Assembly (NCBI RefSeq): GCF_000427665.1
Contig: NZ_KE386572.1
Span: 2,380,196-2,444,195 of the forward strand
DNA: 64,000 nt
Origin: Geminicoccus roseus DSM 18922
GTDB taxonomy: Bacteria; Pseudomonadota; Alphaproteobacteria; Geminicoccales; Geminicoccaceae
Direction: 5' to 3'
Under the pieces are notes generated by a model. That model was not told the DNA's origin, ran no database searches, and saw nothing but the letters and a program-made list of their open reading frames with translations. Position numbers and translations under genes: made by a program. Positions 10,813 through 18,810 of the stretch are shown here, piece by piece (position 1 is the first letter of the stretch; every line of letters starts with the position of its first letter).

Positions 10813-12000
10813 CTACTTCACGAACAGCTTGCGCTCGAACGAGCAGAAGGTCTCCACGCCCGTCTCGGTGATCCGGATCGGCTCGGAGATCGCGATGCCC
10901 CAGTCGTCCAGCCAGATGCCGGGCATGAAGTGGATGGTCATGTTCGGCTGGAGGATGGTGTCGTCGGTGGCGCGCAGCGAGATGGTGCGCTCGCCCCAGT
11001 CCGGCGGGAAGTTCAGCCCGATCGAGTAGCCGCAGCGGGAATCCTTCACCAGGCCCTGGCGTGCGATGGTGCGCGTCCAGGCGGAATGGACCTCCCGCGA
11101 GCCGGCGCCAGGCTTCGCGACCTCCAGGGCGGCCTCGATCCCCTCGGCCACGACCTTGGCGGCATCCGCCATCTTCTGCGGTGGCTGGCCGAGATAGACG
11201 GTCCGGGTCAGCGGCACGTGGTAGCGGTGCCGCACGCCGGCCACCTCGATCGTGGTGCCGGTCTGCGCCTGGAAAGGCGCGTCGGACCAGGTGAGATGTG
11301 GGCAGGACGTGCCGATGCCGGTCGGCATCAGGGGCACGATCGCGGGATAGTCGCCCCCATAGGCGTCCAGGCCCCGCGTGCCCACCGCCTGGATCTCGGC
11401 GGCGACGTCGCACTGGCGGGTCCCCACCGCCATGTGGTCGATCGCGGTGGTCATCATCTTCTCGGTGATCCGGGCCGCCTGCTGCATCAGCTCGATCTCG
11501 GCGGGCGACTTCACCGCGCGCACCCAGTTCACCAGCAGGTCGGCGTCGACGATCCGGGCGTCGGGAAGCTCGGCGCGCAGGATGTCGAGCGCCCGGCCGG
11601 TGAAATAGAAGCTGTCGGCCTCCACCCCGATCCGGCCGGTGGTCATGCCGCGCGCCTTCAGGTTGCGCGCCACGTCCTGCATGGGATGACTCGTGGTCGA
11701 CTGCACGAAGTCGTCGGAATAGTAGAGGATGTTCTCGTCCGGCAGGATCGTGGTGATCCGGGCGCCGTTGGCGTCCTGGCCGCGGCCGAACCAGAGCGGC
11801 TGCTCCAGGTCCTGCAGCACGATCACCGCCTGGTGCACGTAGAACGACCAGCCATTGTAGCCGGTCAGGTAGTTCATGTTGGCGGGATCGCTGCAGATCA
11901 GGGCGTCCAGGCCGGCCTCGGCCATGCGCTGCTTGGTCTTGGCGACCCGCTCGGCGAATTCGTGCTCGCTGAACGGGGTGTTGTTCTTTCCGAATTCCAT
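10813..12000 (-). CDS. doeA: DoeA-like ectoine hydrolase, M24 metallopeptidase family
   Basis: A 395-residue cytosolic protein with a creatinase-type N-domain (about 1-160) and a pita-bread M24 domain (about 165-385). The stretch ANMNYLTGYNGWSFYVHQ and the C-terminal GLNFPPDWGERTISLR resemble DoeA/EutD, which opens the ectoine ring to N-acetyl-diaminobutyrate (family knowledge). Canonical M24 metal ligands (D-D-H-E-E) are largely replaced, as in DoeA and creatinase, which need no metal. It lies nine bases after a second M24 gene, and both diverge from the ehu transporter genes, which supports an ectoine-related role. The specific substrate is inferred. Confidence 0.75.
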   Translation of the reverse strand: MEFGKNNTPFSEHEFAERVAKTKQRMAEAGLDALICSDPANMNYLTGYNGWSFYVHQAVIVLQDLEQPLWFGRGQDANGARITTILPDENILYYSDDFVQSTTSHPMQDVARNLKARGMTTGRIGVEADSFYFTGRALDILRAELPDARIVDADLLVNWVRAVKSPAEIELMQQAARITEKMMTTAIDHMAVGTRQCDVAAEIQAVGTRGLDAYGGDYPAIVPLMPTGIGTSCPHLTWSDAPFQAQTGTTIEVAGVRHRYHVPLTRTVYLGQPPQKMADAAKVVAEGIEAALEVAKPGAGSREVHSAWTRTIARQGLVKDSRCGYSIGLNFPPDWGERTISLRATDDTILQPNMTIHFMPGIWLDDWGIAISEPIRITETGVETFCSFERKLFVK

Positions 12001-12009
12001 GGAGATGCC

Positions 12010-13215
12010 CTAGCGGATCGTCATGTCGGTGGGGGTCCTGGTCAGCACTTCCGGTCCCGCCTCGCCGAGGAGGACGGTGTCGGAGACGAAGTAGTCGCCA
12101 CGCCCGGTTCCCATCAGCCAGGACAGGACATGGAAGCTCATGCCGGTGCGGAGCACCAGCTCGCTGTCGTGGCGCAGCCCGAGCACGCCGTTGCCGCCGG
12201 TCCAGCTCGGCGGCACGCCGAGGCCGACCAGGTAGCCGCAATGGTGGCGCCGGTAGTGGGCGAGGCCGGCCGCGTCGACCACGCTCTGCCAGGCCTCGTA
12301 GACGTCGCGGGCCAGCGCCCCGTCCTTCATGGCACCCAGCACGGCGGCGAAGGCATCCCTTGCCACCGAAGCCATGGCCGCGGTGCCCGGCGGCGCGCGG
12401 CCGACATGGACGAGCCGGCCGAGCGGGGCGTGGTAGCGGGCGACGCAGCCGGACAGTTCCAGGAACAGGGCGCTTCCGTCGCGCAGCTGGGCGGAACTCC
12501 AGCTGGTGTGTTCCTCGCCCAGGCGTTCGGTCGAGCGGATGAACGGGCCGAAGCCCGGATAGGTCCCCTGCTCGGTCATCGCCTTCAGGCAGGCGGCGGC
12601 TACCTCCGCTTCGCTGGCGCCGTCATGGAGGGCGGCGATGCCGGCCGCCGCGGCCGCATCGCTCACCTTGGCGGCGGCACGCAGGGCGGCCTGTTCCCCC
12701 GGGCTCTTGATCATCCGGACCGTGTCGACCAGGCCGGTGACGTCCTCCCACGCGACCTGCGGGAAGGCGTGCTGCAGCATCTGGCCCAGCCCGAGCGACA
12801 GCCCGGCGCTCCACATCTCCAGGCCGATCCGGTCGGGCAGGCGCTGTTCCAGCAGCTCGCGGAGCACCGCGTCGCCGACGTTCTCGGCATCATGGTGGCC
12901 GACGAACCGGGCCTGGTGGACCTGGGCTGCCACCGTCACCCGCTCCATTGCCCGGGTGATCAGCACGAGGTCGCCGCTCTCCGGCACCACCAGCAGGTGC
13001 GGGGCAAAGTAGCCCCAGTGATCCAGCCCGGTGAGGTAGCAGATGTTCTCCGGCGAGGAGATCAGCAGAAGCTCCAGCCCGCGCCCGGCCATGACATGCC
13101 GCACCTTGCTCAGGCGCCCGGCATGCTCCTCCGCCGAAAATGCCCCGCTCACGGCAGGATGCGGCTCCAGACCGCCTTCCCGATACCCGCACCGCCCGTT
13201 CGACCGTCCGACCAT
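12010..13215 (-). CDS. Second M24 family (Xaa-Pro aminopeptidase/creatinase-like) hydrolase
   Basis: About 401 residues with the creatinase/aminopeptidase-P architecture: N-domain with SSPENICYLTGLDHWGYF, then an M24 domain with GYLVGLGVPPSWTGGNG. Metal ligands are mostly absent, as in the neighbouring DoeA-like protein, so it is probably a non-metal hydrolase of a small amidine or amide. I use the ATG at 13215. An ATG at 13248 sits inside a palindrome and is less likely, and a GTG at 13152 just before FSAEEHAGRL is a credible shorter start. It is co-directional with doeA and divergent from ehuB. The substrate is unknown. Confidence 0.75.
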   Translation of the reverse strand: MVGRSNGRCGYREGGLEPHPAVSGAFSAEEHAGRLSKVRHVMAGRGLELLLISSPENICYLTGLDHWGYFAPHLLVVPESGDLVLITRAMERVTVAAQVHQARFVGHHDAENVGDAVLRELLEQRLPDRIGLEMWSAGLSLGLGQMLQHAFPQVAWEDVTGLVDTVRMIKSPGEQAALRAAAKVSDAAAAAGIAALHDGASEAEVAAACLKAMTEQGTYPGFGPFIRSTERLGEEHTSWSSAQLRDGSALFLELSGCVARYHAPLGRLVHVGRAPPGTAAMASVARDAFAAVLGAMKDGALARDVYEAWQSVVDAAGLAHYRRHHCGYLVGLGVPPSWTGGNGVLGLRHDSELVLRTGMSFHVLSWLMGTGRGDYFVSDTVLLGEAGPEVLTRTPTDMTIR

Positions 13216-13243
13216 CTGATCAAGGCTGCTGCTCCAGAGCTCG

Positions 13244-13259
13244 CGCATGTGTACATGCG
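13244..13259. promoter_or_regulatory. Palindrome with TGTACA core, divergent ehu/doe region
   Basis: CGCATGT at 13244-13250 and ACATGCG at 13253-13259 form perfect 7-bp arms around GT. The contained GTGTACAT (13249-13256) recurs inverted as ATGTACAC at 13321-13328. The pair lies in the divergent region between the M24 genes and ehuB, where an operator for the operon's own GntR regulator would be expected. Binding is inferred, not shown. Confidence 0.5.
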
Positions 13260-13320
13260 AGATCTATCTGCTGATGAGTTGAGCCACATTTCAAGCTTGT
13301 TCATGAGCATCATGACCTAG

Positions 13321-13328
13321 ATGTACAC
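13321..13328. promoter_or_regulatory. Second TGTACA-type site upstream of ehuB
   Basis: ATGTACAC is the reverse complement of GTGTACAT inside the palindrome 72 bases away. The two together look like paired half-operators controlling both divergent transcripts. A short motif could recur by chance, so confidence is low. Confidence 0.35.
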
Positions 13329-13451
13329 AACTCTTGAAACGAACGTGGCCTTGGTGCACGTTGGGGATCGTTTTGCAGCCAATCACGCAGCGATGAACCT
13401 GCCGGCGGGCGTTCTGCCGGTCTGCTTCGACGTGCAACGGAGGACGACATC

Positions 13452-14309
13452 ATGCTGAAGACGATCCTGTCGCGACGCGCCCTGATGGCCGTGGCCGCCA
13501 CGGCGACGCTGCTCTCGGCGGGCGCCGCTCATGCGCAGTCGACGCTCGAGGAGGCGCGCGAGGCCGGCTACATCCGGGTGGGCTTCGCCAATGAGGCGCC
13601 GTTCGGCTTCGCGACGCCGGACGGCAAGCTCACCGGCGAGTCCCCCGAGGTGGTGCGGGCGGTCATGAAGAAGCTCGGCATCAACGAGATCGACGGCGTC
13701 CTCACCGAGTTCGGCTCGCTGATCCCGGGGCTTCAGGCCGGGCGCTTCGACATCGTCGCCGCCGGCATGTTCGTGAACCCGGCGCGCTGCGGCCAGGTGC
13801 TGTTCTCCGAGCCGACCTACGGGATCGGCCAGGCGATGCTGGTCCAGGAAGGCAACCCGAAGTCGATCGCCGACTATGCGACCTTTGCGGAGAATTCCGA
13901 CCTGAAGCTCGCCGTGATGGCCGGTGCGGTCGAGGCAGGCTATGCCGCCGACGCCGGGGTCGACCAGTCGCAGCTCGTCCTCCTGCCCGACCAGTCCAGT
14001 CTGGTTGCCGCCGTGAAGTCCGGCCGCGCCGACGCGGCCGCGCTGACCGCCCTCTCGATCGCGGAGATGGCCGAGAAGAACGACGGCCTGGAGTCCACCA
14101 AGCCGTTCGGCGAGGTCGCCGGCACCTCCGTGACCGGACATGGCGCGGTGGCGTTCCGCAAGGACGATGCGGACCTGCAGCAGGCGTTCAACGCCGAGCT
14201 GAAGAACTTCCTGGGCTCCGAGGAGCATCTGGCCCTGGTCGAGCCGTTCGGCTTCGGCGCGGACTTCCTGCCGACCAAGACCACCGCCGAGCTGTGCGCC
14301 GCGGAGTGA
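13452..14309 (+). CDS. ehuB: Ectoine/hydroxyectoine ABC transporter substrate-binding protein
   Basis: Periplasmic binding protein, 285 residues, with a signal peptide ending at AAHAQ (about residue 29) and a class-3 (amino-acid type) solute-binding fold. Several stretches match the EhuB subgroup as I recall it: GFANEAPFGFATPDGKLTGE, DGVLTEFGSLIPGLQAGRFD, a Cys followed by VLFSEPTYGIGQA, and EEHLALVEPFGFG at the C-terminus. A GGAGGACG ribosome-binding site precedes the ATG. It is the first gene of ehuB-C-D-A. Ligand assignment rests on subgroup resemblance and the adjacent DoeA-like gene. Confidence 0.88.
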   Translation: MLKTILSRRALMAVAATATLLSAGAAHAQSTLEEAREAGYIRVGFANEAPFGFATPDGKLTGESPEVVRAVMKKLGINEIDGVLTEFGSLIPGLQAGRFDIVAAGMFVNPARCGQVLFSEPTYGIGQAMLVQEGNPKSIADYATFAENSDLKLAVMAGAVEAGYAADAGVDQSQLVLLPDQSSLVAAVKSGRADAAALTALSIAEMAEKNDGLESTKPFGEVAGTSVTGHGAVAFRKDDADLQQAFNAELKNFLGSEEHLALVEPFGFGADFLPTKTTAELCAAE

Positions 14310-14349
14310 GCTTGACCCCGATGGAACGCCGGGCCTGCGGAGACACGTC

Positions 14350-15078
14350 ATGGTGATGAAGTCGATCACCGTCGCCAGCGTTGTCAGCTTCGCCGCGGGC
14401 CTGGCGGTCGCCTCCTTCGCGGGGTTCCGGGAGTTCATCCCGGGGCTCCTCGAAGGCGCGCTGGTGACGATCCAGATCGCGGTGGCCGGCGCGCTGGTCG
14501 CGGTGGTCTGCGGCCTGCTCGCCGCCATGGGCAAGATGTACGGCCCCCGGCCGGTGCGCTGGCTGGCGGTCGGCTACATCGAGCTGTTCCGCGGGACCTC
14601 CGCCCTGGTCCAGCTGTTCTGGCTGTTCTTCGTGCTTCCCCATTTCGGGGTCACGCTGGCGCCGATGACCGTGGCGATCGTGGCGCTCGGCCTGAACGTG
14701 GGGGCCTATGGCGCGGAAGTCGTGCGCGGTGCGGTGGGATCGGTCCCCCGGGGACAATGGGAAGCCACCGTCGCGCTCAACATGACCCGCTGGGAGGCGT
14801 TGCGGCGGATCATCCTGCCGCAGGCCTTCGTCGCGATGATCCCGCCCTGGGGCAACCTGTTCATCGAGCTGCTCAAGTCCACAGCCCTGGTCTCGCTGAT
14901 CACCATCGGTGACCTGGCCTTCCGTGCCCAGCAGATGAACCAGACCACCTTCCGGACCGTGGAGATCTTCACGATCGTGCTCGTCATCTACCTGGCGATC
15001 GCCTCGGTGATCACGGTGGGAATGAAGACGCTCGAGGCCAGGGCCGCCGGCGCCATGGCCCGCGGCCGCAGCCGGTAG
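14350..15078 (+). CDS. ehuC: Ectoine/hydroxyectoine ABC transporter permease EhuC
   Basis: Inner-membrane permease of 242 residues in the HisM/GlnP amino-acid permease family. About five helices surround the EAA loop VPRGQWEATVALNMTRWEAL (about 134-153) and IILPQAFVAMIPPWGN. It would pair with EhuD and the ATPase EhuA. The LFRGTSALVQLFWLFFVLP segment is typical of this family. Forty bases separate it from ehuB, and 17 bases plus a GGGGAA-type ribosome-binding site precede ehuD. Confidence 0.88.
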   Translation: MVMKSITVASVVSFAAGLAVASFAGFREFIPGLLEGALVTIQIAVAGALVAVVCGLLAAMGKMYGPRPVRWLAVGYIELFRGTSALVQLFWLFFVLPHFGVTLAPMTVAIVALGLNVGAYGAEVVRGAVGSVPRGQWEATVALNMTRWEALRRIILPQAFVAMIPPWGNLFIELLKSTALVSLITIGDLAFRAQQMNQTTFRTVEIFTIVLVIYLAIASVITVGMKTLEARAAGAMARGRSR

Positions 15079-15095
15079 AACAGGGGAATCGAACC

Positions 15096-15758
15096 ATGGA
15101 CTGGGACTGGAGCTATGCCTTCGAGATCCTGCCGGTGCTGGCCAAGGCCTCGCTGGTCACCATCCAGGCGACGATCCTGGGCTTCATCCTGGCGCTGACC
15201 CTGGGGCTCGTCTTCGCGATCCTCCGGATGGCGCGCTCGCCCTACGTGTCGGTGCCGGTATCGGCGTTCGTCGAGTTCATCCGCTCGACGCCGCTCCTGA
15301 TCCAGATCTTTTTCCTCTACTTCGTCTTCCCGGAGTTCGGGCTGAACCTGGATGCGCTCACCGCCGGCATCATCGCGCTGGGCCTGCACTACGGCACCTA
15401 TTGCGCCGAGGTGTACCGGGCCGGCCTGGACAACGTGCCGCGCGGCCAGTGGGAAGCGTCGACCGCGCTGAACCTGACGCCCTACCACACCTTCCGCGAC
15501 ATCATCGTCCCCCAGGCGATTCCGCCGATCGTGCCGGCCCTGGGCAACTATTTCGTGGCGCTGTTCAAGGAGACGCCGCTGCTCTCCGCGATCGCTGTCC
15601 TTGAACTGATGCAGCAGGCCAAGATCCTGGGCTCGACCACGTTCCGCTACATCGAGCCGATCACGCTGGTAGGACTGTTCTTCCTGGTCTTCAGCCTGGT
15701 TGCCGCCGCGCTGATCCGAGGCCTGGAGCGCCGCCTCAATCGAATCGGAGCACGCTGA
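15096..15758 (+). CDS. ehuD: Ectoine/hydroxyectoine ABC transporter permease EhuD
   Basis: Second permease of the importer, 220 residues, about five transmembrane helices, same family as EhuC. The conserved loop is VPRGQWEASTALNLTPYHTF followed by DIIVPQAIPPIVPALGNYF. The region FIRSTPLLIQIFFLYFVFP precedes it. Its TGA overlaps the ATG of ehuA (TGATG), so the subunits are translationally coupled. The C-terminal RGLERRLNRI is a normal cytosolic end for the family. Confidence 0.88.
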   Translation: MDWDWSYAFEILPVLAKASLVTIQATILGFILALTLGLVFAILRMARSPYVSVPVSAFVEFIRSTPLLIQIFFLYFVFPEFGLNLDALTAGIIALGLHYGTYCAEVYRAGLDNVPRGQWEASTALNLTPYHTFRDIIVPQAIPPIVPALGNYFVALFKETPLLSAIAVLELMQQAKILGSTTFRYIEPITLVGLFFLVFSLVAAALIRGLERRLNRIGAR

Positions 15759-16537
15759 TGACCGTCCAGCCCATGGTAAAGTTCGACGGGGTGACCAAGA
15801 GCTATGGCGCGCTGACCGTCCTGGACAATCTGGACCTCGAAGTCGGCGCTGGGGAAAAGGTCGCCATCATCGGGCCATCCGGCTCGGGCAAGACCACCGT
15901 CCTGCGCATGCTGATGACCCTCGAGGCGATCAACGGCGGCGTGATCTATGTCGACGGTGAGCCGCTGACCCACACCCGCAAGAATGGCGCGCTCGTGCCG
16001 GCCGATGCCGCCCACCTGCGCCGGATGCGGGGCAAGATCGGCATGGTGTTCCAGCACTTCAACCTGTTCCCGCACATGAGCGCGCTCAAGAACTGCATGG
16101 AGGCGCCGGTCACGGTGCTGAAGATGCCCAAGCAGGAGGCGCGCGCGCGGGCGGCGGAACTGCTGGAGATGGTGGGACTGGGCGACAAGCTCGACCACTA
16201 CCCGTCCCAGCTCTCTGGCGGGCAGCAGCAGCGCGTCGCGATCGCGCGCGCCCTGGCGATGCGGCCCAAGGTGATGCTGTTCGACGAGGTGACGTCCGCC
16301 CTCGACCCGGAGCTGGTCGGCGACGTCCTGAACGTGATCCGGCGGCTCGGCTCCGAGTTGGACCTGACCATGCTGATGGTCACCCACCAGATGGGGTTCG
16401 CCAAGGAGTTCGCCGACCGGGTCTGCTTCTTCTACGCGGGCAGGATCCATGAGCAGGGGCCGCCCGAGCAGCTGTTCGGCGCCCCGCAGAGCGAGCGGAC
16501 CCAGCAGTTCCTGAGCGCCTGCCTGGAGGCGACATGA
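15758..16537 (+). CDS. ehuA: Ectoine/hydroxyectoine ABC transporter ATP-binding protein
   Basis: ATPase of 259 residues driving the EhuCD permease. It shows Walker A GPSGSGKTT (about 39-47), Q-loop VFQHFNLFPH, signature LSGGQQQRVAIARAL, Walker B VMLFDEVTSALDPE and H-loop VTHQMGF. The insert carrying HTRKNGALVPADAAHLRRMR is typical of EhuA-type ATPases. The end overlaps the following GntR gene by an ATGA, placing the regulator in the same transcript. Confidence 0.9.
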   Translation: MTVQPMVKFDGVTKSYGALTVLDNLDLEVGAGEKVAIIGPSGSGKTTVLRMLMTLEAINGGVIYVDGEPLTHTRKNGALVPADAAHLRRMRGKIGMVFQHFNLFPHMSALKNCMEAPVTVLKMPKQEARARAAELLEMVGLGDKLDHYPSQLSGGQQQRVAIARALAMRPKVMLFDEVTSALDPELVGDVLNVIRRLGSELDLTMLMVTHQMGFAKEFADRVCFFYAGRIHEQGPPEQLFGAPQSERTQQFLSACLEAT

Positions 16538-17250
16538 ATCCGCGTCTGGACGGACCGGACGGTGTCGATCCGCCGGCCAGTGCGCGGGAACGTTCCGACC
16601 GCCTGTACGGCATCCTGCGCGACCGGATCTGCACGCTCGCCTACCCGCCGGGAATGCGGCTGTCCGAGGAGGAGCTGGCCGAGGAGTTCCATGTCAGCCG
16701 CACGCCGGTGCGGCGTGTCCTGACCCGGCTGGAGAACGAGGGGCTGGTGACCATCGTCCATGGCGTGGGCACCCTGGTCACCGACGTGGAGCTCGACCAG
16801 CTGATCCAGGTCTACCATCTGCGCCTGGAACTTGCCGTCCTCCTGGGCAAGCTGTCGCCGGTCCCGCGCGAGCCTGCCGATCTGGACCGGATCCGCCGGC
16901 TGATCGAGGACTGCGGCGACCTTTCCGCCGACGCCGACCACATGGCCTTCGCCCGCCTGAACATGGCGTTCTTCGCCGAGATCAGCGCCATGACCGGCAA
17001 CGCGACCCTGCGCGAGATCTCCGAGCGGCTCTATTACCAGACGACGCGGATCGTCCTGAAGATGCTGCCGATCCTCAATCTCACGGAGGAGGTCGCGGCA
17101 TTCCGCCAGGAGATGACCGAGATCCTGGCGGCGTTGCAGGTGGGCGACCTGGAGGCGGTGGGGCATCTGCGCCGGGCGCATATCTCGATGAGCCTGAACC
17201 GGATGCTGCGCTATGCGGCCAGCACCGGCGCGGAACCGGTGCCGGCCTGA
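16534..17250 (+). CDS. GntR family regulator, FCD (FadR-like) subgroup
   Basis: A 238-residue transcription factor with an N-terminal winged helix (LSEEELAEEFHVSRTPVRRV, about 44-63) and a C-terminal all-helical FCD ligand domain (about 90-225). It overlaps ehuA by ATGA and is therefore made with the transporter, suggesting control of the ehu/M24/hydA locus by a substrate or intermediate. The known ectoine regulator EnuR is a MocR-type protein, so this would be a different control design. The TGTACA-core sites upstream of ehuB are candidate targets (inference). Confidence 0.87.
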   Translation: MNPRLDGPDGVDPPASARERSDRLYGILRDRICTLAYPPGMRLSEEELAEEFHVSRTPVRRVLTRLENEGLVTIVHGVGTLVTDVELDQLIQVYHLRLELAVLLGKLSPVPREPADLDRIRRLIEDCGDLSADADHMAFARLNMAFFAEISAMTGNATLREISERLYYQTTRIVLKMLPILNLTEEVAAFRQEMTEILAALQVGDLEAVGHLRRAHISMSLNRMLRYAASTGAEPVPA

Positions 17251-17349
17251 TCGGGCCCGTCTGCGGCGTGGACAGATCAGGCGTCCGGGTCGATCATCCG
17301 CCATCGCCCGTCGGTGCGGGCAGGTGGAACCCTTGGGGGAGATCGTCCG

Positions 17350-18810
17350 ATGGCGCTGTTGATCCGTGGCGGCACGGTGGTGAACGCCGATCGCAGCTTT
17401 CGTGCAGACGTGCTGGTCGATGGCGGGACGATCCAGGCGGTCGGCGAGAACCTGGACGCGCCGGCTGGCGCCGAGGTTGTCGATGCCGGTGGCGCCTATG
17501 TGATGCCCGGCGGGATCGACCCGCACACCCATCTGGAAATGCCCTTCATGGGCACTGTCGCGGTCGAGGACTTCTTTTCCGGCACGTCGTCGGCGCTGGC
17601 CGGCGGCACCACCATGATCATCGACTTCTGCATCCCGGGGCCTGGGCGCAGCCTGACCGACGGGCTCGACGACTGGCAGTCCTGGGCGCAGAAGGCCTGC
17701 GCCGACTACTCCTTCCACGTCGCCATCACCGAATGGACCGAGCGCACCTCCCAGCAGATGGCCGAGGTGGTCGACCGCGGCGTGACCAGCTTCAAGCACT
17801 TCATGGCGTACAAGGGCGCCTTGATGGTCGACGACGAGATCCTGTTCCACAGCTTCTCGCGCTGCCGGGACCTGGGCGCCCTGCCGATGGTCCATGCCGA
17901 GAACGGCGATGCGGTGTTCCTGCTCCAGCAGCAGCTGCTCGACCGCGGCATCACCGGCCCCGAAGGCCACGCCCTGTCGCGCCCGCCCCACGTCGAGGCC
18001 GAGGCTGCCAACCGGGCCATCATGATCGCCCAGACGGTCGGCTCGCCGCTCTACGTGGTCCACACCTCCTGCCGGGAGGCCCACGAGGCGATCGCGCGTG
18101 CCCGGGCGTCCGGCCTGCGGGTCTACGGCGAGCCCTTGATCCAGCACCTGGTCCTGGACGAGAGCGTCTACTGGTCGCCCGACTGGGAGTTCGCGGCCTC
18201 CCGGGTGATGAGCCCGCCGTTCCGCTCCAAGGAGCACCAGAAGTCCTTGTGGGACGGCCTGCTTGCCGGCTCGCTGCAGGTGGTCGCCACCGACCACTGC
18301 GCCTTCACCATCCAGCAGAAGAAGGGCGGCCTGGACAACTTCACCAAGATCCCGAACGGCACCGGCGGGCTGGAGGAGCGCCTGAAATGCCTGTGGCATT
18401 TCGGGGTGAACACCGGCCGGCTGACCCCCAACGAGTTCGTCGCGGCGAGCTCGGCCAACTGTGCGCAGATCTTCGGGCTCTATCCGAGGAAGGGTGTGGT
18501 CCAGGCGGGCTCGGATGCGGACCTGGTGGTGTGGGACCCCAAGGCCAGCGGGACGATCTCGGTCAAGACCCATCACTCCAAGATGGACACCAACGTGTTC
18601 GAGGGCATCCGCGTCGAAGGGATGCCGGCGGTCACCGTCGCCAACGGCAAGGTGGTCTGGCGGAACGGACAGCTGGACGTGCAGCGGGGTGCCGGCCGGA
18701 TGATCCAGCGCAAGCCGGGCAGTTCGGCCACCGAGGCCCAGGCCAAGGTCAACGAGCGGACGCGGCCGGAAGGCGTGCGCCGGATGGTCAGCACCCAGCA
18801 GACGCCGTGA
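17350..18810 (+). CDS. hydA: Dihydropyrimidinase (cyclic amidohydrolase)
   Basis: A 486-residue cytosolic TIM-barrel amidohydrolase that hydrolyses dihydropyrimidines or hydantoins. All binuclear-zinc residues are visible: His59/His61 in DPHTHLE, the carboxylated Lys in FKHFMAYKG (about 155-163), His in VHAENGD, His in YVVHTSCREA and Asp in VATDHCAF. The start at 17350 has a GGGGGAGA ribosome-binding site about 9 bases upstream. It follows the GntR gene by 99 bases and probably belongs to the ehu operon. No other pyrimidine-degradation gene is nearby, so the true substrate may be another cyclic amide or amidine. Confidence 0.9.
   Translation: MALLIRGGTVVNADRSFRADVLVDGGTIQAVGENLDAPAGAEVVDAGGAYVMPGGIDPHTHLEMPFMGTVAVEDFFSGTSSALAGGTTMIIDFCIPGPGRSLTDGLDDWQSWAQKACADYSFHVAITEWTERTSQQMAEVVDRGVTSFKHFMAYKGALMVDDEILFHSFSRCRDLGALPMVHAENGDAVFLLQQQLLDRGITGPEGHALSRPPHVEAEAANRAIMIAQTVGSPLYVVHTSCREAHEAIARARASGLRVYGEPLIQHLVLDESVYWSPDWEFAASRVMSPPFRSKEHQKSLWDGLLAGSLQVVATDHCAFTIQQKKGGLDNFTKIPNGTGGLEERLKCLWHFGVNTGRLTPNEFVAASSANCAQIFGLYPRKGVVQAGSDADLVVWDPKASGTISVKTHHSKMDTNVFEGIRVEGMPAVTVANGKVVWRNGQLDVQRGAGRMIQRKPGSSATEAQAKVNERTRPEGVRRMVSTQQTP

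Follow-up and report, generated by a model that had tools for sequence, protein, structure and literature searches.

A predicted GntR-FCD-controlled module for ectoine-type uptake and ring opening, with two M24 hydrolase genes, next to a dihydropyrimidinase gene in Geminicoccus roseus

Introduction

Ectoine is a salt-protection molecule. How might it be handled by a locus that encodes an ectoine-type importer, two M24 hydrolases, and a dihydropyrimidinase, and none of the enzymes for the later steps of ectoine degradation? This question is raised by a stretch of 64,000 nt from Geminicoccus roseus DSM 18922 (assembly GCF_000427665.1, contig NZ_KE386572.1; genome of 5.7 Mb), which we refer to as the window. 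An initial annotation, made from the sequence alone, proposed that the dihydropyrimidinase (HydA) opens the ring of ectoine or a related compound and that the second M24 protein replaces a missing step. We consider it likely that the locus is a GntR-FCD-controlled module that imports and ring-opens ectoine or a close tetrahydropyrimidine, and that HydA is a resident dihydropyrimidinase and no ectoine enzyme.

Results

Gene content of the locus

The genes ehuBCDA, gntR, hydA, M24a, and M24b are all long open frames. They are listed here with the two predicted operators, in window coordinates.

10813..12000, minus strand: M24a, probable ectoine hydrolase of a divergent subtype, related to DoeA/EutD; TIGR02993 524.5 bits, PDB 6twj 1.7e-124
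12010..13248, minus strand, true start probably later: M24b, second EutD-like M24 hydrolase (putative); EutD 6twj 5e-41, creatinase 1.3e-16
13247..13256, no strand assigned: predicted GntR operator 1, ATGTGTACAT, pattern WTGTRYACAW
13321..13330, no strand assigned: predicted GntR operator 2, ATGTACACAA, pattern WTGTRYACAW
13452..14309, plus strand: ehuB, binding protein; TIGR02995 307.5 bits (cut-off 190.9), S. meliloti EhuB 2q88 1.4e-51
14350..15078, plus strand: ehuC, permease; TIGR03004 277.1 bits (cut-off 196.95)
15096..15758, plus strand: ehuD, permease; TIGR03003 325.1 bits (cut-off 205.2)
15758..16537, plus strand: ehuA, ATPase; TIGR03005 428.7 bits (cut-off 345.4)
16534..17250, plus strand: GntR-FCD regulator; Pfam GntR and FCD, start overlapping the ehuA stop by 4 bases
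17350..18810, plus strand: hydA, dihydropyrimidinase, probably of the reductive pyrimidine pathway; TIGR02033 603 bits (cut-off 393.25)

What the initial annotation described was borne out. The transporter is complete, with all four subunits above their NCBIfam equivalog cut-offs, and the GntR-FCD gene is coupled to it by the 4-base overlap. HydA exceeds its family cut-off and has the metal motifs HxH, Lys, His, His, and Asp (judged by eye against the usual pattern); its start is more likely at 17350, which corrects an earlier start. Both M24 genes are DoeA-like, M24b being far more distant than M24a. As the annotation also held, no doeB, doeC, or doeD is found at the locus, nor is AsnC, according to the gene list and the locus annotation. 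The order M24a/M24b–ehuBCDA–gntR–hydA–lipoprotein-like gene–bactofilin–PfkB-type kinase is common to the window, Geminicoccus harenae (L006), and G. flavidas (L007), where the contig stops inside M24a.

Ectoine-type uptake and M24a

At the positions that we take to form the first-lobe pocket in the EhuB structure, the window EhuB has Glu, Phe, Phe (Tyr in S. meliloti), Phe, and Arg. The Glu and Arg are kept in all 59 EhuB proteins of the loci described below, and the three cage positions are aromatic save for one Asn.

The best PDB match of M24a is EutD (6twj), and in a quickly built tree with 147 sequences M24a grouped with EutD (SH-aLRT 98). The window M24a falls there in a clade of eight rows with Geminicoccus, Devosia, Xanthobacteraceae, and Mesorhizobium. 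The EutD core residues His245, Glu262, Arg276, Arg349, and His368 (6twj numbering, used for EutD throughout) are invariant in 60 M24a-type rows, EutD included. In Devosia nitrariae (L005, genome G031) and a Xanthobacteraceae metagenome-assembled genome (L008, G032), the M24a subtype, 79% identical to the window protein and scoring 524–525 bits for DoeA, is accompanied by EutE, EutB, EutC, AsnC, Ssd, and Atf; the next DoeA-like matches in these two genomes reach only 154 and 202 bits. Because this subtype is the sole strong DoeA-like gene in genomes with a complete eut cluster, M24a is probably an ectoine hydrolase. Together, the Ehu scores, the pocket Glu and Arg conserved in every EhuB protein, and the occurrence of the M24a subtype in place of DoeA in complete eut clusters support, at the level of sequence comparison, the idea that the locus combines ectoine-type uptake with a DoeA-type hydrolase.

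Distribution of the module

We collected related loci in one scan with M24b as the query and used the best 80 of 126 relatives, which with the window gave 81 loci. Because M24b was the query, the counts from these loci are silent on ehu clusters without M24b. Many of the 80 come from few genera, Mesorhizobium above all, some contigs are short, and L007 and contig C131 of genome G004 are presumably one genome. Genes in the loci were called with a simple codon-usage caller, AsnC was named by eye, and family labels come from comparing ten representatives with NCBIfam (the EutA-like protein had no match) and from further scans.

EhuB was present in 59 of the 81 loci, and these 59 loci contained M24a (52), a GntR gene (45), EutB (30), SoxA (28), and Ssd with Atf (22). 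The combination of ehuBCDA, GntR, M24a, and M24b is thus recurrent across Alphaproteobacteria. Sarcosine oxidase beta and alpha genes occur in 28 EhuB loci, usually directly 3′ of the M24 genes (L011, L014 to L017, L022 to L028, and others). Four Sinorhizobium/Ensifer loci (L060, L067, L073, and L075) unite in one cluster two M24a subtypes, M24b, Sox, EutB/C/E, AsnC, Ssd, Atf, and a GntR gene.

Regulator and predicted operators

In Pfam the window GntR protein matches the GntR and FCD families but no aminotransferase domain, so it is not of the EnuR type. The local regulator is therefore GntR-FCD and not the MocR-type EnuR, a statement about the locus only, as no EnuR search was made elsewhere in the genome. 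In 37 of the 59 EhuB loci no called gene lies between ehuA and the GntR gene.

The palindrome WTGTRYACAW occurs twice in the window, compared with 0.09 sites expected, and both sites lie between M24b and ehuB. In the 1,581,402 bases of the 81 loci we found 85 sites, 84 of them at the divergent ehu promoter (four of these 84 are labelled as in a gene owing to start calls), and 55 of the 59 EhuB loci carry the operator. As gntR accompanies the ehu operon from locus to locus, GntR-FCD is the likely binder of these predicted operators. We also considered a wider GntR regulon and rejected it: the genome has seven WTGTRYACAW sites, two of them at the locus, and a reversed control pattern gives four. 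Of the other five genomic sites, two are within genes and three are intergenic, with no ectoine link visible by eye.

Later steps of ectoine degradation

The initial annotation allowed that the remaining genes lie elsewhere in the genome. A genome search for doeB, doeC, and doeD gave a doeB match below the cut-off and only general homologues of Ssd and Atf; no full doeBCD set turned up elsewhere. For EutE/DoeB (TIGR02994) the whole genome gave one match, of 289.6 bits, under the cut-off of 402.7. The EutE-like gene at C5:3036k (L002 8935–9954), at 290 bits, has an AstE/AspA catalytic domain; nearby lie genes for a family-3 binding protein and an IclR-type regulator as well as permease- and ATPase-like genes (both by eye). 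TIGR02994 matches of 268–285 bits are also found beside true EutE in other genomes and, because the score of the C5:3036k gene is near this paralogue level, the case for it as the missing DoeB is weak. The DoeB proteins of M. alcaliphilum and H. elongata are only 22% identical, according to the available part of PMC7192451, so absence of DoeB by model is not proof.

Dedicated Ssd and Atf were not identifiable in the genome, and none is at the locus. The closest homologues of Devosia Ssd and Atf, at 53% and 46% identity, are encoded outside the locus. The Ssd homologue is general: among 31 genomes that represent the order and belong to a single family, 27 have it at 50–60% identity, three at only 40–41%, and one has none at E≤1e-100.

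In the EhuB loci, EutE was found in nine, an M20 deacetylase in 19, both in none, and neither in 31. We searched for EutE in the genomes of 45 of 46 loci, L006 being left out. EutE above cut-off was present in 2 of 14 genomes with an M20 cluster vs 24 of the 31 that have no such cluster (Fisher p = 1.6e-4, shared ancestry ignored), which suggests that M20 replaces EutE. The M20 gene is of the acetylornithine-deacetylase type and lies in EutE-less ehu/eut clusters in 19 loci, including L020, L033, L034, L045, and L019.

The second M24 protein

M24b scores 154.4 bits with TIGR02993 (cut-off 613) and 178.9 bits with the second DoeA model, NF038259 (cut-off 575), below both cut-offs. In the quick tree it forms its own clade of 80 rows apart from M24a (SH-aLRT 92, not starred). 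The start at 13248 is probably too early, with the next ATG near 13215, because predicted operator 1 overlaps 13248 and most M24b frames are about 30 codons shorter: 50 of 80 (the window's included in the 80) were called at 379–383 aa, vs 412 aa in the window. M24b keeps EutD His245, Trp248, Glu262, Tyr270, Arg276, Arg354, and His368; Glu262 corresponds to Glu255, reportedly the nucleophile in the EutD structure paper. It lacks EutD Glu348 and Thr350, and Arg349 is found in about a third of M24b rows, not including the window. Invariant residues peculiar to M24b are His77, Arg242, Glu245, and Glu246 (window numbering). M24b is thus probably an EutD-like hydrolase with a different pocket. We also considered creatinase, with which M24b shares the catalytic His column; this assignment is disfavoured by the better EutD match (5e-41 vs 1.3e-16) and by the Glu262 column, where creatinase has Asn and M24b has Glu, given the roles we presume for the creatinase-type residues. 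In three Roseovarius loci (L061, L063, and L083), M24b lies away from ehu and is divergent from an EutA-like gene of the arylmalonate-decarboxylase family, which in L061 is Pfam Amdase and in L063 is separated from M24b by one gene.

If M24b replaced a missing step, the deacetylation of N-acetyl-diaminobutyrate in lineages without EutE and M20, such as Geminicoccus, would be the step to consider. The genome of the window has no EutE above cut-off, and the same holds for the genomes of L030 and L048, which also have M24a and M24b and no M20 in the locus. M24b keeps the His and Glu of EutD, and its invariant Arg and Glu-Glu pair by that His may suit a free-amine substrate. Against this, M24b accompanies EutE in nine and M20 in 19 of the 59 EhuB loci, a divergent DoeB might have been missed given the 22% identity noted above, and M20 was searched in the window's genome at the locus only. 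M24b as a general substitute for EutE is rejected by the 28 loci in which it coexists with EutE or M20. The proposal of the initial annotation therefore failed as a general role for the second M24 protein; for a local role here these data speak neither way, and we regard M24b as a Geminicoccus deacetylase as doubtful.

Sarcosine oxidase loci and the choice of substrate

We searched for DoeA in 42 genomes, namely G000, G004, and 40 of the 45 searched for EutE. All eight Sox-locus Mesorhizobium genomes searched (G033, G035, G036, G037, G043, G044, G045, and G047) have canonical DoeA above cut-off, and EutE too. Sox loci make up 22 of the 31 EhuB loci without EutE or M20; for 14 of the 22 the genome was searched, and EutE above cut-off was present elsewhere in every case.

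The eight Mesorhizobium genomes, together with the soxA-family sarcosine oxidase alpha genes in 28 of the 59 EhuB loci, would fit a module that serves another zwitterionic amidine or guanidine, for example a compound yielding an N-methyl amino acid. We consider this unlikely, as M24b is far nearer EutD than creatinase and has Glu, not the creatinase Asn, at Glu262; as EutB occurs in 30 and Ssd with Atf in 22 of the EhuB loci; and as the module has no neighbouring Sox genes in the window, L006, or L007 (Sox was searched at the locus only).

HydA and the reductive pyrimidine pathway

Apart from HydA, no gene in the genome exceeds the D-hydantoinase cut-off. The second match, at 225.6 bits, is assigned to dihydroorotase by its family model (702.6 bits vs a cut-off of 482), and the third has 124 bits. 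The genome also has PydB at C5:996490 (719 bits, cut-off 335), adjoined by a gene with dihydropyrimidine dehydrogenase domain II and a pyridine-nucleotide oxidoreductase domain, as expected of PydA. A PydC-like amidase at C5:566703 is 72% identical to the PydB-adjacent amidase of G025 and exceeds the hydantoinase/carbamoylase cut-off (426 bits vs 204).

In the 31 family genomes, HydA (E≤1e-120) was present in 20 and PydB (above cut-off) in 19, with 17 having both (17/3/2/9, Fisher p = 4.6e-4, shared ancestry ignored). In 10 of the 20 HydA-bearing genomes (G002, G009, G013, G014, G015, G016, G017, G018, G027, and G029), no more than about 5 kb separates HydA from PydB or a PydC-like amidase; the HydA of G009, G015, G016, and G017 is only 42–47% identical to that of the window. 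HydA adjoins ehu in two of the 20. M24b was found in two of the 31 genomes, both of the genus Geminicoccus. Because HydA is widespread and tracks PydB while M24b is rare, HydA is probably a family gene going with pyrimidine catabolism, a positional neighbour and not a member of the ectoine module; the ehu and M24 genes are probably the newcomers beside it. Looking for an empty ehu insertion site, we found no flank in common with the window above 38% identity in the HydA stretches outside the genus.

A role for HydA in the ectoine route, either opening the tetrahydropyrimidine ring or deacetylating in place of EutE, would draw on position. In the window hydA is on the gntR strand, 99 bases 3′ of gntR, and this order is kept in L006 and L007. 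The slot after gntR holds EutE in L005, L008, and L056, and an M20 deacetylase lies one gene further in L012, so the slot appears to attract amidohydrolases. The initial annotation proposed comparing this linkage in relatives; it turned out to be confined to 3 of the 59 EhuB loci (the window, L006, and L007), all Geminicoccus-type, which on linkage is largely the outcome that the annotation had named as refuting its proposal. No WTGTRYACAW site was found upstream of hydA in any of these three. The gntR–hydA gap contains a promoter-like TGGACA-17-GATCAT, with equal spacing in L006 and L007, which is weak evidence for a candidate promoter of hydA's own. RNA folding of the gap gave z = –1.03, nothing notable. 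Ectoine is a cyclic amidine and the dihydropyrimidinase family opens cyclic imides or ureides. Genome content, the family-wide distribution, and the lack of an operator before hydA thus leave the ring-opening proposal of the initial annotation unsupported, and any part for HydA in the ectoine route is very unlikely.

Discussion

A proposed module for uptake and ring opening

In the mechanism that we propose, GntR would act on the two predicted WTGTRYACAW operators in the region that separates the ehuBCDA-gntR operon from the divergent M24b-M24a operon, and its release by the ligand would induce both. EhuBCDA would take up the ligand, M24a would hydrolyse it to N-alpha-acetyl-diaminobutyrate using the EutD-type His/Glu core, as its sequence and relatives suggest, and M24b might carry out a second EutD-like hydrolysis on a related substrate. 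Deacetylation, transamination, and oxidation to aspartate may depend on unlinked or unrecognised enzymes. HydA would complete the reductive pyrimidine pathway, the other genes of which are scattered over the chromosome.

Several observations weigh against this interpretation. M24a scores 524.5 bits with TIGR02993, under the equivalog cut-off of 613, and one of the two genomes that link its subtype to complete eut genes (G032) is metagenome-assembled and may be incomplete. The second lobe of the window EhuB departs from that of S. meliloti, with Ala-Val for Gly-Thr at 132–133. As described above, the genome has no EutE above its cut-off, and neither Ssd nor Atf was identifiable in a dedicated form, so the steps after ring opening are only presumed. 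Some Mesorhizobium hold M24a/M24b/ehu as a second locus, besides a canonical DoeA-EutE pair and adjoining sarcosine oxidase genes, and therefore another substrate could be meant. As for HydA, no terminator was detected in the 99-base gap, so co-transcription with ehu-gntR is possible. In the seven nearest HydA-bearing family genomes outside the genus (72–79% identity), HydA stands alone with no pyd genes nearby. The best family model of the C5:566703 amidase is named allantoate amidohydrolase, so its PydC label rests on kinship and pyd context.

The ectoine-uptake subtype with a second M24 protein is a modest new variant. A broader proposal, possible and on the unlikely side, is that the GntR-FCD, two-M24 genes form a so far unreported ectoine-utilisation subtype across Alphaproteobacteria, that M24b is a re-specialised second EutD, and that in the reduced Geminicoccus forms the M24a-M24b pair replaces the EutD-EutE bimodule. 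In the titles and abstract openings of the open-licence literature we found no GntR-FCD-controlled ectoine cluster described in Alphaproteobacteria; in that literature 'ectoine' occurs with 'dihydropyrimidinase' only in a metatranscriptome study and with 'FCD domain' only in a Rhodococcus genome study. Two surveys have delimited ectoine-consumer clusters, one by adjacent eutD/eutE (PMC8739950) and one by a high identity to EutD proteins already known (PMC13188858), as far as the available parts of these papers state, and because of these definitions the surveys would tend to pass over this subtype. The subtype supplies a predicted operator, a candidate regulator, and a conserved enzyme, M24b, as direct tests. 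A lesson from hydA is that being linked in three genomes, all from a single genus, did not amount to functional evidence.

Comparison with known systems

Like S. meliloti ehuABCD-eutABCDE, the window locus encodes an EhuBCDA importer, and like both that cluster and H. elongata doe it encodes an M24-type ring-opening hydrolase. Unlike these two systems, it has a regulator of the GntR-FCD type, with a predicted operator of its own, in place of EnuR/AsnC, it has a second M24 gene, and it lacks EutA, B, C, E, Ssd, and Atf. HydA resembles the dihydropyrimidinase of reductive pyrimidine catabolism in sequence (TIGR02033), metal motifs, and co-occurrence with PydB in the family; it differs in that hydA is unlinked to pyd genes in this genome and sits after the gntR of the ehu operon. 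M24b is like creatinase in belonging to the M24 family and in its catalytic His column, and unlike it in having the Glu of EutD where creatinase has Asn and in having no adjacent sarcosine oxidase at the window. Clusters with two eutD homologues and no eutE are described in Thermodesulfobacteriota and Bacillota, those of Bacillota with a putative amidohydrolase gene, abgB, in the available part of PMC13188858, the main text of which, so far as available, contains neither 'GntR' nor 'FCD' and does not mention the alphaproteobacterial GntR-FCD subtype. These two-eutD, eutE-less clusters, which differ in gene order and regulators as described there, are the nearest precedent for the window locus.

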